This document shows positions 45,989-53,485 of a stretch of 64,000 nt of DNA, piece by piece. The notes under the pieces are model-generated. The model was given only the letters and a program-made list of their open reading frames with translations. It was not told the origin of the DNA and made no database searches. The DNA is from Streptomyces sp. NBC_00775 (GTDB lineage Bacteria > Actinomycetota > Actinomycetes > Streptomycetales > Streptomycetaceae): positions 4,588,001 through 4,652,000 of the forward strand of contig NZ_CP108938.1 of assembly GCF_036347135.1 (NCBI RefSeq), read 5' to 3'. The position numbers were made by a program, and so were the translations under genes. Numbering within the stretch: position 1 is the stretch's first letter; every line of letters begins with the position of its first letter.

Positions 45989-46696
45989 TTAGACCGTCAC
46001 GCCCTTGGTGCGCAGGAAGGCGACCGGGTCGATGGCGGACCCGTAGTTCGCGGTCGTACGGATCTCGAAGTGCAGGTGCGGCCCGCTGGAGTTGCCGGTG
46101 TTGCCGGAGAGCGCGATGTGCTGGCCGGTGGCGACGATCTGGCCGACCTTCACGTCGATGCGCGACAGGTGGGCGTACTGCGAGTAGGTCCCGTTGCCGT
46201 GCTTGATGACGATGGCGTTGCCGTACGCGGGACCGTCACCGGCGCCGTTGCCGCCGGTCTTGACGACGGTGCCGCCGTGCGCGGCGACGACCTCGGTGCC
46301 GCTGGGCACGGCGAAGTCCTGCCCGGAGTGGGTGGACTGCCACATGCTGCCGGCCTGGTTGAAGCTGGCGGACAGGGTGTACTTCTTCACCGGGTCGACC
46401 CAGGAGGCGGCCTTCGCGGCGGCGGCCTTCGCGGCGGTCGCGGCGGCGGCCTTAGCGGCGGCGGCCTTGGCGGCGGCCGCGGTCTTCGCCGTGGCGGCGG
46501 CCTTGGCCTGGGCGGCGGCCTGCGTCTGCACGGCGTTCGCCGCCGTGACGGTTCCGGTGCTGACGAGGCTGGTCTCGGCGGCGCCCGCGACCCCGGCGCC
46601 CAGCACGACCGAGGCACCCAGCCCGACGGCCAGGACGGCCGCCCCTGTGCGGATACGGGACATGCGGGAGTGACGGGACGTGACGCGCTTCGACAT
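45989..46696 (-). CDS. Secreted M23-family peptidoglycan peptidase
   Basis: A 235-residue LytM-type endopeptidase. The signal peptide (TGAAVLAVGLGASVVLGAGV, cut after AGAA) is followed by an Ala/Lys-rich helical region (about 75-115). The M23 domain has the zinc-site motif THSGQDFAVPSGTEV and the catalytic HLHFE motif (GPHLHFEI). The zinc ligands are present, so it is likely active. ATG at 46696 is the start, with GAGG 8 bases upstream. A long untranslated region upstream may regulate it. Confidence 0.9.
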   Translation of the reverse strand: MSKRVTSRHSRMSRIRTGAAVLAVGLGASVVLGAGVAGAAETSLVSTGTVTAANAVQTQAAAQAKAAATAKTAAAAKAAAAKAAAATAAKAAAAKAASWVDPVKKYTLSASFNQAGSMWQSTHSGQDFAVPSGTEVVAAHGGTVVKTGGNGAGDGPAYGNAIVIKHGNGTYSQYAHLSRIDVKVGQIVATGQHIALSGNTGNSSGPHLHFEIRTTANYGSAIDPVAFLRTKGVTV

Positions 46697-47248
46697 GGGG
46701 ACCTCGCGGAGACGGGGACAAGGACACAAACACCACCCGGCGCACAACCGGCCACCGGATGGGGTCCCTCTTGGTAACCCGCGACCCCACAGACCCCCAA
46801 ACCGCCCATCTACGACCTTTAGTAGTACTTAACCCCCACAACTTGGCGATCCTTGACAGCGCGGACATCCCGTACGGGGGCCTTCCGGATTTCTCCTGTC
46901 AAATGACGTTTAGCCCCACTTAGAGGCGTCGCGCCCCACCGAAAAACTCCGTGTCCCCCAGGGCACACCCTGATGCGCAACCCGCCCTCCGGGTTCCAGG
47001 CCAAAGGTCCTTTTTGCCCGTTCTTGTCTTTCCACTATTCGCCCTAGTAACGGACAAATCGCCTGTGCGTCATGTCACCGGGCGGCAAGATCCAGGATCC
47101 CTGGAATGTGACGGCGGCTACACCACACCGCCCAGCCCCGGCCCCGTGAACCGCACCCCGGCCGACTGTCTCAACATCGTTCGCGGGTGCCTCAACACCC
47201 CGTAAAATCCAGCTACTTGCACGGGATTTTGAGGGATACCGGGGGATC
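46697..47248. promoter_or_regulatory. Divergent intergenic region, M23 peptidase and trypco2 gene
   Basis: A 552-base gap. On the M23 side a 7-bp stem (TGGGGTC at 46760-46766 pairing with GACCCCA at 46783-46789) lies in the likely leader, and TTGACA on the minus strand (about 46896-46901) could be a -35 element. On the trypco2 side there is an AAAATCC/GGATTTT inverted repeat (47204-47230), a CTCAACA direct repeat (about 47170 and 47191) and a TCCAGGATCCCTGGA palindrome (47091-47105). No coding region or known riboswitch core was recognised. Confidence 0.45.
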
Positions 47249-47620
47249 ATGACCGCCACTTCGCCGCGCGCAACCGACCTGGACGGCATCGAACTCTCCG
47301 ACGCCATCGCCTCGGTCCGCGACCAACTCATCGAGGCCGCGACACGGGCATCGGGTCAGCCCGTGTCGTTCGAAGTCGGTGCCATCGAGATGGAATTCAC
47401 GCTTGAGCTGCGCAAGGAGGTGAAGGGAAGCGGCAAGGTCAAGGCCTGGGTCGTCGAGGCGGGAGCCGACACCTCGCGCGAGACGGGCCGGACACACCGC
47501 GTCGCCTTCACCCTCACCCCGCGGGACGCGCGGACCAACGCCCCGTGGCAGGTCGGCAACGAGCGGCAGGGCAGCACCTCGGCCTTCGGCCAGGTACCCA
47601 ACCCGCCCACGGCGCGATGA
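47249..47620 (+). CDS. Trypco2-family protein (trypsin-co-occurring domain 2)
   Basis: A 123-residue small protein. It begins with a helix (LDGIELSDAIASVRDQLIEA) and continues with a beta-hairpin segment (PVSFEVGAIEMEFTLELRKE, KGSGKVKAWVVEAGAD, RVAFTLTPRDA). This is the pattern of the trypco2 domain, found beside trypsin-like proteases in predicted conflict systems (family name from memory). The stop TGA overlaps the ATG of the protease-NACHT gene (ATGA, 47617-47620), so the two proteins are translationally coupled and probably interact. ATG at 47249 has GGGGGA close upstream. Confidence 0.8.
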   Translation: MTATSPRATDLDGIELSDAIASVRDQLIEAATRASGQPVSFEVGAIEMEFTLELRKEVKGSGKVKAWVVEAGADTSRETGRTHRVAFTLTPRDARTNAPWQVGNERQGSTSAFGQVPNPPTAR

Positions 47621-50600
47621 CCCCGGCCGCCGGTCCGGCCGACCGGGCGGTGGTCGTACTGGGTCAGGCACAGGGCAGCGGAGTCGCCCTCAACAGCCGC
47701 CTCGTCCTCACCTGCGCCCACGTCATCGGCGCCGGCCCGGCACCGGAGATCGCCCATCCCGGCAGCGCGGAGCCGATCACCGCCCAGGTCATATGGCAGG
47801 ACGCCGGACTGGACGCGGCCCTGCTGCTCACGAACGCCGACCTCCCCTGCTCCTCCCACGTCCGCATCGGCCACCTGGACACCACCCAGCCGCTCCGGCA
47901 CTGCGAGACCATCGGCTACCCGGACGTCCAGCGCCGGGGCCCGGAAGGTCACCTCGCCTCCGACCAGTACGCGGGCACGGTCCTGCCGGCCGCGGCCCGC
48001 CCCCACTCCGTCCTCACGTTCGCCTTCGACCAGCCGCCCGCCGTCGAACTCCCCGACGGCCCCTCCCCCTTGGCGGGCCTGTCCGGCGCCCCGGTCTTCG
48101 CGGGCGACGTCCTGCTCGGCATCGTCGGCGCCATCCCCCGCGGGCGCGGCCACCTCCGCGCCGAGGGCACCTTGATCAGCGACCTGAAGGACATGCCGTA
48201 CGACCTGCCGCTCAGCGAACCGATCAGCCACCACCACCCGCTGGACCGCATCTACGAGGCGGAGTACGCGCAGGCCGTCGGCGCCACCTATCACAAGACC
48301 AAGATCTTCGGCCTGGACGATCTCAGCCGCCGCGAAGCCGAATGGGACCTGGACACCGCGTATCTGAGCCTGGAGGCGGCGACCCGCATCTCGGAGGCCG
48401 ACGCGCGCAACCTGGACACCACGACGACGCGGCAGAGGTCGTCCCGGACGGACCGCACCCCCCAGCGCGTCGAAACGCTCCTGTCCACCCGCCCCCGCGT
48501 CCTGCTGCGCGGTGACGCGGGCGCCGGCAAGACGACGCTGACATGGTGGCTGGCAGCCCACTCCGCCTCGGGCACCCACGGCCCCAGCCTGGCCGGGCTC
48601 AACGGCCTCGTCCCCTTCGTCGTCCCGCTACGGACCCTGCGCGCCCAGCGGGTGGACTTCCCGTCCCCGTCCCAGCTCCCGCACGCGGCGAAACTGGGGA
48701 TGGACGAGCCGCCCGAAGGCTGGGTGGGCCGGGTCCTGCGTGCGGGACGCGCCCTCCTGCTCGTCGACGGCCTGGACGAGGTCCCGCAGACCGACCGCGA
48801 GGAAGCGCACCACTGGCTGTCCGCCCTGCTGCGGCGTTTCCCGGGCACGCGCTGCGTCGCCACCGTACGTCCCCTCGCCGTCGAGCCCGACTGGCTCGAG
48901 TCGGAGCAGTTCGAGGAGTTACGGCTCCTGCCGATGCGCGACGACGACATCCAGACGTTCATCAAGGCCTGGCATCGCGCCGCCCGCCTGGACGACGACG
49001 ACCACGATCTGCTGCGCGAACTGGAAAGGGACCTGTCCCAGCAGTTCCGCCACAATCCCGCTCTCAGCGACCTGGCCCGCACTCCGCTCCTGTGCGCGGT
49101 GATCTGCGCACTCCACCGCCGCCTCCAGGGATTTCTTCCGGAGACCCGCTTCAAGCTGTACCAGTCGGCCCTGGAGATGCTTCTCGGCAACCGCGACAAG
49201 CGCCGTGGAGTGGACGCGCCCGACGGCATCACCATGTCCGTCGAGGAACACCACCAGATCCTCCAGCGCATCGCGGTCTGGCTGGTCCGCTGCGGCCAGT
49301 CCGAATTCACCCGCGCCCAGGCCCGTCCCCAACTCGAAGCCGCCCTGGCGGGCATGGAACGCGTACGGAGCCAGGGCACGACCGAGGAGGTCCTCACACA
49401 CCTCCTCAACCGCTCGGGCCTGCTCCAGGAACGCGCCGAGGATTCCTACCAGTTCATCCACCGCACGTTCCAGGATTTCCTCGCCGCGAAGGAACTCGTC
49501 GAAAGCGGCTCCCTGAAGGAACTCGTACGCAATGCCGACGACGAACTGTGGCACGACGTCATCCTGCTGGCGTCGGGCCATTGCCGCCGAGAAATCAGGG
49601 AGTTGCTGACCGGACTCCTCGCCAAGGCGGAGGCCCGGGACACTCCGGAGCCCCTGCGCACCCAGCTCCTCGTCCTGTCCGCCCTCTGCTCCGAGCACGC
49701 GGCATGGCTGGAGAAGGATCTACGCGACCGTATCCGTGACCACATCAGCGGCCTCGTCTCCTCCGCCTCCGTGACACAGACCGCCCAACTGGCCCGGCTG
49801 GGGCCCTACGTCCTGCCGTTCCTGCCGGACCCCGGCGGCTTGTCGAGCGTGCAGCAGTCCCGGATCGCACTCCTCGTCTCCAGAATCGGAGGCGCCGAGA
49901 CCATTCCCTACGCGGGTCGCCTCGTTTCCCTCCCGGACGCGTGGCGCCCAGCCGTCTCTCGGCTCGTCACTGCGTGGGACAACTTTCCCGCCGAGGAGTA
50001 CGCCCTCGAAGTCCTCGGACACGTGGCCAACCTGGCCGACCATCGCCTGCTGGTGACCACCAAGGAGCAACTGTCGCTGCTGCGGCTGCTGCCCGGCGCC
50101 AACGACCTCACGCTCACCGGGCCCTTCTCGTCGAAGGAGCTCCAGGAAGCTCCACTCCCGAAAGTCACCACACTGACTCTGCGCAGAATGCTGGTCCTGG
50201 AGGACCTGGCCTTTCTGCGCACTCAGGAAGAGTGCCTGAACCGGCTGAGCCTGTCGTCCTGCCCATCACTCACGGACGTCTCACCCCTGGCGACGATGTC
50301 TTCTCTGAGCTCCATCAGCCTCCAGCTCCAGCCCCTGCCCGCTGACGCGCTGGAGTACGTACGAGCCATTCCCCGGCTCCGCTCGCTGACGCTCAACGCT
50401 CCCCATCTCACCGCGGTGGCATCCCTCCCCGCCCACCCGACCGTCACTCGTCTCGATCTCCCCGTGCCACGGATGCTGGATACCACAGGCCTTGAAGCAT
50501 GGGAGTCGCTGACCGACCTCACCCTGCCGTGCCCGCTGTCCCCCACCAGGTTCTGGGACTGCGTCCGTGCGACGGACCGGATCAACCGCGTCGAGACCAT

Positions 50601-50892
50601 GGTCCGTTCCCTCTCCGAACTGAGCGGCATGCGCCCACTGCCTCGCGTCACGGTTCTGCGGCTGTCAGGGGTCGTCGACTGGAGTGATGTGGCCGTCCTG
50701 CCCTCGGCCTTCCCCGCGCTCTCCCGCCTTTCGCTCAGTCTTCAGCCGGGCGCCCGCGCCGAGGCCCCTCTGGATCTACGCCCACTGCGCGCACTGCCAG
50801 ATCTCCAATTGACCGTGACAAGTGACGGCCGTTTTGTTCGGGTCATCGGAGGCAAACGCTTCGGCATCCCGGACGGCCGCGCGGTTCGCTGA
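47617..50892 (+). CDS. Trypsin-like protease / NACHT NTPase / leucine-rich-repeat protein (NLR-like)
   Basis: A 1091-residue three-part protein. The N-terminal chymotrypsin-fold protease (about 8-195) has an intact-looking triad: His35 (VLTCAHV), Asp66 (DAGLDAALL) and Ser156 (GLSGAP). The NACHT/STAND NTPase follows, with Walker A GDAGAGKTT (Lys305) and Walker B ALLLVDGLDEVP (Asp384), RFPGTRCVATVRP as sensor 1 region and FIHRTFQDFLAAKELV as the NACHT winged-helix marker (about residue 614-629). The C-terminus (about 820-1075) has about eight leucine-rich repeats (for example LNRLSLSSCPSLTDVSPLA). This is the architecture of nucleotide-binding LRR immune receptors. It is coupled to trypco2. The LRR part seems less GC-biased than neighbouring core genes. 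Confidence 0.9.
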   Translation: MTPAAGPADRAVVVLGQAQGSGVALNSRLVLTCAHVIGAGPAPEIAHPGSAEPITAQVIWQDAGLDAALLLTNADLPCSSHVRIGHLDTTQPLRHCETIGYPDVQRRGPEGHLASDQYAGTVLPAAARPHSVLTFAFDQPPAVELPDGPSPLAGLSGAPVFAGDVLLGIVGAIPRGRGHLRAEGTLISDLKDMPYDLPLSEPISHHHPLDRIYEAEYAQAVGATYHKTKIFGLDDLSRREAEWDLDTAYLSLEAATRISEADARNLDTTTTRQRSSRTDRTPQRVETLLSTRPRVLLRGDAGAGKTTLTWWLAAHSASGTHGPSLAGLNGLVPFVVPLRTLRAQRVDFPSPSQLPHAAKLGMDEPPEGWVGRVLRAGRALLLVDGLDEVPQTDREEAHHWLSALLRRFPGTRCVATVRPLAVEPDWLESEQFEELRLLPMRDDDIQTFIKAWHRAARLDDDDHDLLRELERDLSQQFRHNPALSDLARTPLLCAVICALHRRLQGFLPETRFKLYQSALEMLLGNRDKRRGVDAPDGITMSVEEHHQILQRIAVWLVRCGQSEFTRAQARPQLEAALAGMERVRSQGTTEEVLTHLLNRSGLLQERAEDSYQFIHRTFQDFLAAKELVESGSLKELVRNADDELWHDVILLASGHCRREIRELLTGLLAKAEARDTPEPLRTQLLVLSALCSEHAAWLEKDLRDRIRDHISGLVSSASVTQTAQLARLGPYVLPFLPDPGGLSSVQQSRIALLVSRIGGAETIPYAGRLVSLPDAWRPAVSRLVTAWDNFPAEEYALEVLGHVANLADHRLLVTTKEQLSLLRLLPGANDLTLTGPFSSKELQEAPLPKVTTLTLRRMLVLEDLAFLRTQEECLNRLSLSSCPSLTDVSPLATMSSLSSISLQLQPLPADALEYVRAIPRLRSLTLNAPHLTAVASLPAHPTVTRLDLPVPRMLDTTGLEAWESLTDLTLPCPLSPTRFWDCVRATDRINRVETMVRSLSELSGMRPLPRVTVLRLSGVVDWSDVAVLPSAFPALSRLSLSLQPGARAEAPLDLRPLRALPDLQLTVTSDGRFVRVIGGKRFGIPDGRAVR

Positions 50893-50901
50893 CACACAAA
50901 A

Positions 50902-50939
50902 AGGGGCTGCCCCAGGACCGAAGTCCCAGGGCAGCCCCT
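50902..50939. terminator. Bidirectional terminator between NACHT gene and clpC
   Basis: AGGGGCTGCCC and GGGCAGCCCCT form an 11-bp stem, extended by GGAC/GTCC around a CGAA loop after a 2-base internal mismatch. It lies between convergent genes. Confidence 0.85.

Positions 50940-50959: not shown

Positions 50960-53485
<2,526 letters not shown>

Follow-up and report, generated by a model that had tools for sequence, protein, structure and literature searches.

The DNA considered here is a 64,000-nucleotide stretch of Streptomyces sp. NBC_00775 (positions 4,588,001 to 4,652,000 of contig NZ_CP108938.1; the whole stretch is called the window), and our subject is a pair of genes within it. A short gene for a protein with the Trypsin-co-occurring domain 2 (Trypco2) runs into a long gene for a receptor that combines a trypsin-like protease domain, a NACHT domain, and leucine-rich repeats (LRRs). 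Both overlapping genes, joined by the ATGA at 47617-47620 and with a receptor chain of 1091 residues, are present as the original prediction had read them from the letters. The features of the locus are as follows.

47249..47620, plus strand: trypco2 gene, 123 amino acids (aa), Trypsin-co-occurring domain 2; Pfam PF19631 at residues 14-91, E 1.5e-27.
47617..47620, plus strand: ATGA overlap placing the receptor start over the trypco2 stop; read from the sequence, with receptor M1 kept in at least 90% of 121 sequences.
47617..50892, plus strand: trypsin-NACHT-LRR receptor gene, 1091 aa; from sequence, Pfam, alignment, predicted structure, and Foldseek.
47629..48204, plus strand: HtrA-like serine protease domain, residues 5-196; Pfam Trypsin_2, 2.1e-6.
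47719-47721, 47812-47814, and 48082-48084, plus strand: codons of the protease triad, H35, D66, and S156.
48499..48981, plus strand: NACHT domain, residues 295-455; Pfam PF05729, 1.4e-22.
48529-48531 and 48766-48768, plus strand: codons of Walker A K305 and Walker B D384, invariant in the 121 sequences and in 107 of 107 NACHT rows.
49543..50010, plus strand: helical stretch between NACHT and LRR, residues 643-798, from the predicted structure.
50047..50823, plus strand: LRRs, 11-12 strands, residues 811-1069, with hypervariable exposed strand residues.
50902..50939, no strand: inverted repeat in the gap where the receptor and clpC genes converge, its 17-nucleotide arms being 88% complementary.
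50960..53485, minus strand: clpC, the 3'-side neighbor; Pfam Clp_N, AAA_2, ClpB_D2-small.
45989..46747, minus strand: M23 peptidase gene, the 5'-side neighbor, start codon uncertain; Pfam PF01551.

Judged by its layout, the ATGA overlap likely couples translation of the receptor to that of trypco2, and the inverted repeat is likely a terminator shared by the receptor and clpC. No Rfam family was matched between 45900 and 54000. The assignment of the small protein to Trypco2 is clear (96.1 bits against a curated cutoff of 24.2), and it stands beside a trypsin-like peptidase gene, as expected of the family.

The receptor was aligned with the best 120 of 749 homologues over threshold (7994 scored candidates), giving 121 sequences with the query. 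H35, D66, S156, K305, and D384 all lie where the original prediction had placed them and are invariant in this alignment. Within the 107 NACHT rows, which were picked by near-full profile match and contain the query twice, K305, D384, R418, and H615 are kept without exception; we take R418 to be the sensor residue and H615 the winged-helix His. Of fifty trypsin segments (query included), 48 keep H35 and D66 and the other two have gaps there; S156 is kept in 47, replaced by another letter in one, and gapped in two. The five deviating rows are two pieces each of the frame-broken domains of genomes G094 and G082, and a row from G374, whose frame holds TAAHV and GMSGS motifs, so that its deviation is likely a misalignment. 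PDB sequences searched with the trypsin domain alone gave nothing up to E 1, and the placement of the triad therefore rests on its invariance and on a fold match: the protease part of the predicted structure resembles DegQ/DegS. An invariant His-Asp-Ser triad in a predicted chymotrypsin-type fold makes this a putative trypsin-like protease.

The whole predicted chain finds its best Foldseek matches in NLRP3, NLRC4, and NOD2 (E 7e-19 to 1e-15 among the top 20), members of the nucleotide-binding, LRR-containing receptors (NLRs). Pfam LRR models did not match the query receptor, and the repeats are called from the predicted structure and the repeat pattern; the structure raises their number from the eight or so originally proposed to 11-12. 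The proposed order of effector, switch, and sensor, as in NLRs, was right, with animal NLRs as the best structural matches. The chain has the parts that define an NLR, namely, a NACHT-class signal transduction ATPase with numerous domains (STAND) whose Walker A and B motifs are intact, C-terminal LRRs, and an N-terminal effector of the trypsin/HtrA-like type. Sequence and predicted fold point to an NLR with a protease effector.

Relatives of the receptor at E 1e-30 or better occur in 274 of 392 genomes of the genus, and a family-level draw of 101 genomes holds a relative at 1e-80 in 46 genomes from 9 of 17 genera; a scan of the single query sequence against named genomes returned one locus. 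Among the best 30 loci (query's included), the 1.5-kb flanks of the receptor include the 3' end of clpC in 29 and an adjoining Trypco2 frame in 28. The two loci without Trypco2 (L021 and L027) have an in-frame stop in the receptor, and L017, also with a stop, keeps Trypco2. ClpC was detected in 139 of 140 genomes, and the DNA beyond its 3' end (up to 11 kb; four copies at contig ends were skipped) was collected from 134 genomes and our own. The M23 gene is reached in 114 of these 135 stretches, which we treat as complete intervals; the other 21 stand outside the interval counts.

What occupies the interval between clpC and M23? NACHT receptor genes are found in 58 of the 114 complete intervals, relics in 4 (fragments only, in G005, G016, G133, and G139), and no NACHT in the remaining 52. 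A single NACHT gene is present in 47 of the occupied intervals, and 11 were counted as holding two or three, a count that takes in a single broken gene in G057 and, in G094, a copy that is broken. Counted as near-full NACHT modules, one is present in 48 intervals, two in 8, and three in 1. Tandem arrays of two or three NACHT genes at L144 (G136), L142 (G118), and L069 (G123) look like small receptor clusters. Across all 135 stretches there are 78 near-full modules, of which 20 carry trypsin at the N terminus and 58 of the 58 others Pfam NNH1. The C-terminal profile of the query's receptor family matches all 78 and extends well into the LRR in 70, and one of these 70 is present in 53 of the 114 complete intervals. 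The region next to clpC is a fixed site where receptors come and go with either N-terminal effector, trypsin plus Trypco2 or NNH1.

All 78 of the near-full receptors converge on clpC, and the nearest one lies about 100 bp from it (median of 67 genomes). This closeness raises the question of whether the receptor guards or reports host proteostasis, for instance ClpC or a chaperone, with the neighborhood being functional. Host DnaJ is required by bNACHT25, according to the available text of PMC12169576, which fits such a role. The receptor is, however, absent from the 52 empty clpC intervals, trypsin receptors also exist elsewhere and on a plasmid, and convergent genes share no promoter; we consider this explanation quite improbable.

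The tempo of gain and loss was estimated on a rapidly built tree of three flanking proteins (M23, TetR, and MFS) for the 78 of 135 genomes that have them all, with relics counted as absent. This tree needs at least 25 changes of occupancy state and, counted separately, at least 19 of presence/absence; roughly one in three of its inner branches is poorly supported. The label "empty" changes 22 times, 15 of them forced by well-supported branches, which also force 6 changes of "trypsin." When labels were shuffled, all five states together proved more clustered on the tree than the shuffled ones (0 of 200 as low), as did NNH1 (0 of 500), whereas "empty" was only slightly clustered (43 of 500) and "trypsin" was not (500 of 500). 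A related trypco2 and NACHT pair with a one-base overlap resides on a 68-kb plasmid of Streptomyces jietaisiensis (L225, NZ_CP108340.1), its receptor being 45% identical over 88% of the query. This plasmid-borne pair shows one route of transfer. Our own genome has two more NACHT paralogues, at G000:C1:207769-210372 and 3151338-3153476, whose similarity starts only near residue 210 and which lack the trypsin part.

The LRR is the fastest-evolving part of the receptor: mean pairwise identity, taken over every third sequence of the alignment, is 0.78 for NACHT and 0.35 for the LRR. Over ten registered repeats, with exposed positions assigned from the repeat pattern and not from coordinates, entropy is 3.13 bits at strand-exposed positions (n = 40), 1.00 at scaffold positions (n = 30), and 2.28 in the remaining LRR (n = 151), against 1.70 in the helical stretch (n = 155). 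Hypervariable exposed strand residues of this kind are as in recognition surfaces and suggest a sensor. In 19 nonindependent pairs of 22 genes with NACHT identity above 84%, the median ratio of nonsynonymous to synonymous rates (dN/dS) is 0.65 for the LRR, 0.46 for residues 641-800, 0.39 for the protease, and 0.23 for NACHT, and the LRR value exceeds the NACHT value in 19 of 19 pairs. Invariant catalytic residues in divergent homologues, together with the NACHT ratio, indicate purifying selection. This speaks against an ordinary accessory gene that has no immune role and is retained by chance at a permissive site; such a gene would agree with the lack of a known phenotype and with the 118 of 392 genomes that have no match at 1e-30, and we regard it as very improbable.

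Taken as a whole, the clpC-M23 interval may be a bacterial counterpart of a plant resistance-gene locus, in which allelic NLRs appear, disappear, switch between the trypsin/Trypco2 and NNH1 types, stack in tandem, and diversify on the exposed LRR face under phage pressure, with Trypco2 as a dedicated regulator of the protease allele. We advance this comparison tentatively, at somewhat less than an even chance. Presence/absence change at one fixed locus and a hypervariable LRR are also typical of allorecognition genes, and Streptomyces grows as hyphae. The receptor could accordingly serve self/nonself recognition or developmental cell death in a multicellular bacterium, like the NLR incompatibility genes of fungi, and not act against phages. 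The related pair on a plasmid tells against this, as do the NACHT proteins that are antiphage factors in other bacteria (available text of PMC12169576); neither point is decisive, and we consider such a role unlikely.

Which part of the receptor does Trypco2 belong to? At the clpC locus, a Trypco2 frame lies within 700 bp of 19 of the 20 trypsin receptors (query's included), the exception being a second tandem copy in G094. Only 3 of the 58 NNH1 receptors score near a Trypco2, those of G007 and G098 through the copy of a tandem trypsin receptor and that of G011 through an orphan. The association (Fisher 4e-14) is descriptive only, the genomes being related. The G011 orphan (L158), a 294-aa frame with a Trypco2 domain, separates clpC from an NNH1 receptor that has no trypsin domain; it may be what is left of a trypsin receptor that has since disappeared. 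We also inspected 31 genes beside Trypco2, drawn from the 30 best Trypco2 loci and the second Trypco2 of our own genome by a crude picking rule that often cut genes at the locus edge. Trypsin_2 was matched in 20 of them, and the switch was nSTAND_NTPase5 in 11, NACHT in 8, and NB-ARC in 1; joint matches were displayed for the first member only, L034, which has Trypsin_2 with nSTAND_NTPase5. Since Trypsin_2 is common beside Trypco2 while the switches vary, Trypco2 most likely serves the protease regardless of the switch fused to it. The second Trypco2 gene of our genome (L002, G000:C1:5030782-5031012, minus strand) has as neighbors, read by eye, a protein with a trypsin-like N terminus and a GGVGKTT (NB-ARC-like) switch and a recR-like gene. 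Also by eye, the Trypco2 tails (47522-47617 and L034-L063) end in a VGND..GST..FG-like C terminus beside NACHT receptors and in other ways beside other switches. On a FastTree tree of 106 NACHT modules, there are four changes between trypsin and another N terminus, at least 2 of them forced by supported branches, in a tree where long branches meet; fusion of trypsin to the NACHT switch of this family has probably occurred repeatedly, and both main trypsin groups have members with an adjacent Trypco2.

With its small size, its following of the protease across switches, and its probable translational coupling, Trypco2 has about an even chance of being a regulator or adaptor. An alternative is that it is a substrate, which the activated protease cleaves to free an active or toxic form, like the HamM proenzyme nuclease and its fused trypsin-like protease. 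According to the available text of PMC12799240, fused trypsin-like proteases of the Hachiman, AVAST, Lamassu, and DRT systems are directly preceded by a gene for a predicted nuclease, which in Hachiman and AVAST has been demonstrated to be a proenzyme substrate. Trypco2 sits in the same upstream place and tracks the protease domain, yet it has only 123 residues and no enzyme family match, and its low-confidence model shows helices and two strands. It also occurs beside trypsin on other switches (nSTAND_NTPase5 at L034 and, by eye, GGVGKTT at L002), which would need one small toxin for all. We judge a substrate role doubtful. Trypco2 may, as a third option, be a scaffold.

The combination points, with about equal chances for and against, to an intracellular alarm: on binding of a foreign or danger ligand to the repeats, the cell would be killed or arrested. 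In animal NLRs, a ligand is followed by NACHT opening, ring formation, and effector activation. By analogy, a ligand would bind the LRR through the hypervariable exposed strand residues and release the nucleotide-held NACHT, which would form a ring; the clustering could then activate the N-terminal protease, as HtrA and HamA-fused proteases suggest. Trypco2 would regulate the protease domain as a subunit devoted to it, with an inhibitor or adaptor role more probable than that of a substrate, and cleavage of one or more cell proteins would lead to growth stop or death and limit phage spread. The sequence of ring first and protease second follows animal NLRs and the Hachiman fused protease; the latter oligomerizes and then cleaves its partner (available text of PMC12799240). 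Antiphage action is presumed from related NACHT proteins that are antiphage, as described in the available text of PMC12169576.

Ten nearby genes scanned with Pfam are ordinary, one having no match, and so are the direct flanks, M23 and clpC. Among the ten, PADLOC hits were confined to two genes, clpC (best 2e-40, PDC-M37B) and one for a RadA-like ATPase (8.5e-6), both taken as generic AAA matches; its matches for the receptor are weak and lie only in the protease part (RT-Protease_XI, 4.9e-6; LmuA, 1.7e-5). A defence-island reading of the window was dropped on these grounds, and the idea that the pair sits in such islands finds no support among the ten genes scanned here.

Several results weigh against an immune NLR whose protease is governed by Trypco2. 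No defence genes were recognized among the ten scanned neighbors, phage records gave no match, and a scan of viral contigs limited to six peptide patterns found none. The receptor model has a predicted template modeling score of 0.55, with parts of the NACHT module poorly modeled (predicted local distance difference test [pLDDT] down to 43), and the Trypco2 model is poor (pLDDT 59). For eight of the 78 receptors at the clpC locus, the profile match does not extend far into the LRR. Domain-average dN/dS is below 1 throughout and does not demonstrate positive selection, and the synonymous rate of receptor residues 801-1080 relative to orthologues is about 1.5 to 4 times the NACHT value, so that LRR segment exchange, recombination, or alignment error may add to LRR divergence; the excess hints at segment exchange between alleles. 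Of a selection of 25 additional trypsin-NACHT proteins, 16 have Trypco2 beside them and 9 lack it. Four of these proteins are encoded at clpC loci (one in G304, one in G300, and two in G187), and of them the broken G300 gene and the second G187 copy have no Trypco2; away from clpC it accompanies 14 of 21, and those without are G011b and six of one subclade. These six (L213-L218), from other genomes, have no adjoining Trypco2 by profile, and Trypco2 is, by sequence comparison, not indispensable everywhere. The proposal of a receptor coupled to a small partner thus holds widely, and constant adjacency does not. Trypco2 lies downstream in G348, G144, G234, and G044, against a simple inhibitor-first order, and we rejected the idea of an antitoxin-like Trypco2 that always comes first.

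About half of the examined Streptomyces genomes carry NLR-built genes beside a housekeeping gene, clpC. If our interpretation is true, they offer a defined, countable locus for bacterial NLR evolution, with two effector types, tandems, relics, and empty sites at the same place; the hypervariable LRR face would point to where the ligand binds, and the function of Trypco2 would become a two-gene test. Bacterial NACHT-LRR NLRs, Trypco2, NNH1, and trypsin effectors are each already known. A literature search, mostly outside subscription papers, found no description of Trypco2 with a trypsin-NACHT-LRR at clpC or of the clpC-M23 interval as a receptor locus.

How does the pair compare with known systems? 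Animal NLRP3, NLRC4, and NOD2 are its best whole-chain structural matches, with NACHT, helices, and LRR in that order, at 14-16% sequence identity in the top rows. Their N terminus is a PYD or CARD adaptor, and here a fused protease takes its place. The NNH1-NACHT proteins are alike in clpC locus, orientation, and, by profiles of the query's family, NACHT and C-terminal parts; in all 58, NNH1 stands at the N terminus in place of trypsin, and they generally lack a Trypco2 of their own. The "bona fide bacterial NLRs" (bNACHT) share the central NACHT and the LRRs, but the effectors of bNACHT25/32 are PD-(D/E)XK nucleases (available text of PMC12169576), where our receptor has a trypsin/HtrA-like protease and a partner gene for Trypco2. 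The VMAP/vWA-MoxR ternary conflict systems, as the available part of Kaur 2020 (PMC7159879) presents them, likewise have a Trypco gene adjoining a trypsin-like peptidase. Here, no VMAP, vWA, or MoxR was matched among the ten scanned neighbors, the AAA_5 match of clpC being its own Clp ATPase, and the two-gene unit has its protease on the same chain as NACHT-LRR. In the nuclease-protease pairs of Hachiman and AVAST, the partner is a metallo-beta-lactamase-type nuclease proenzyme (Tuck 2025, PMC12799240, available text), and Trypco2 has no such match. CARD-NLR/LypABC is alike in that trypsin-like peptidases act with an NLR-like STAND ATPase. According to the available text of PMC13236601, that system differs from the receptor in the window in dividing the peptidases (LypA and LypC) and the active ATPase (LypB) among separate proteins, in having repeats that resemble tetratricopeptide repeats, and in the CARD-like domain and degenerate ATPase of LypA.

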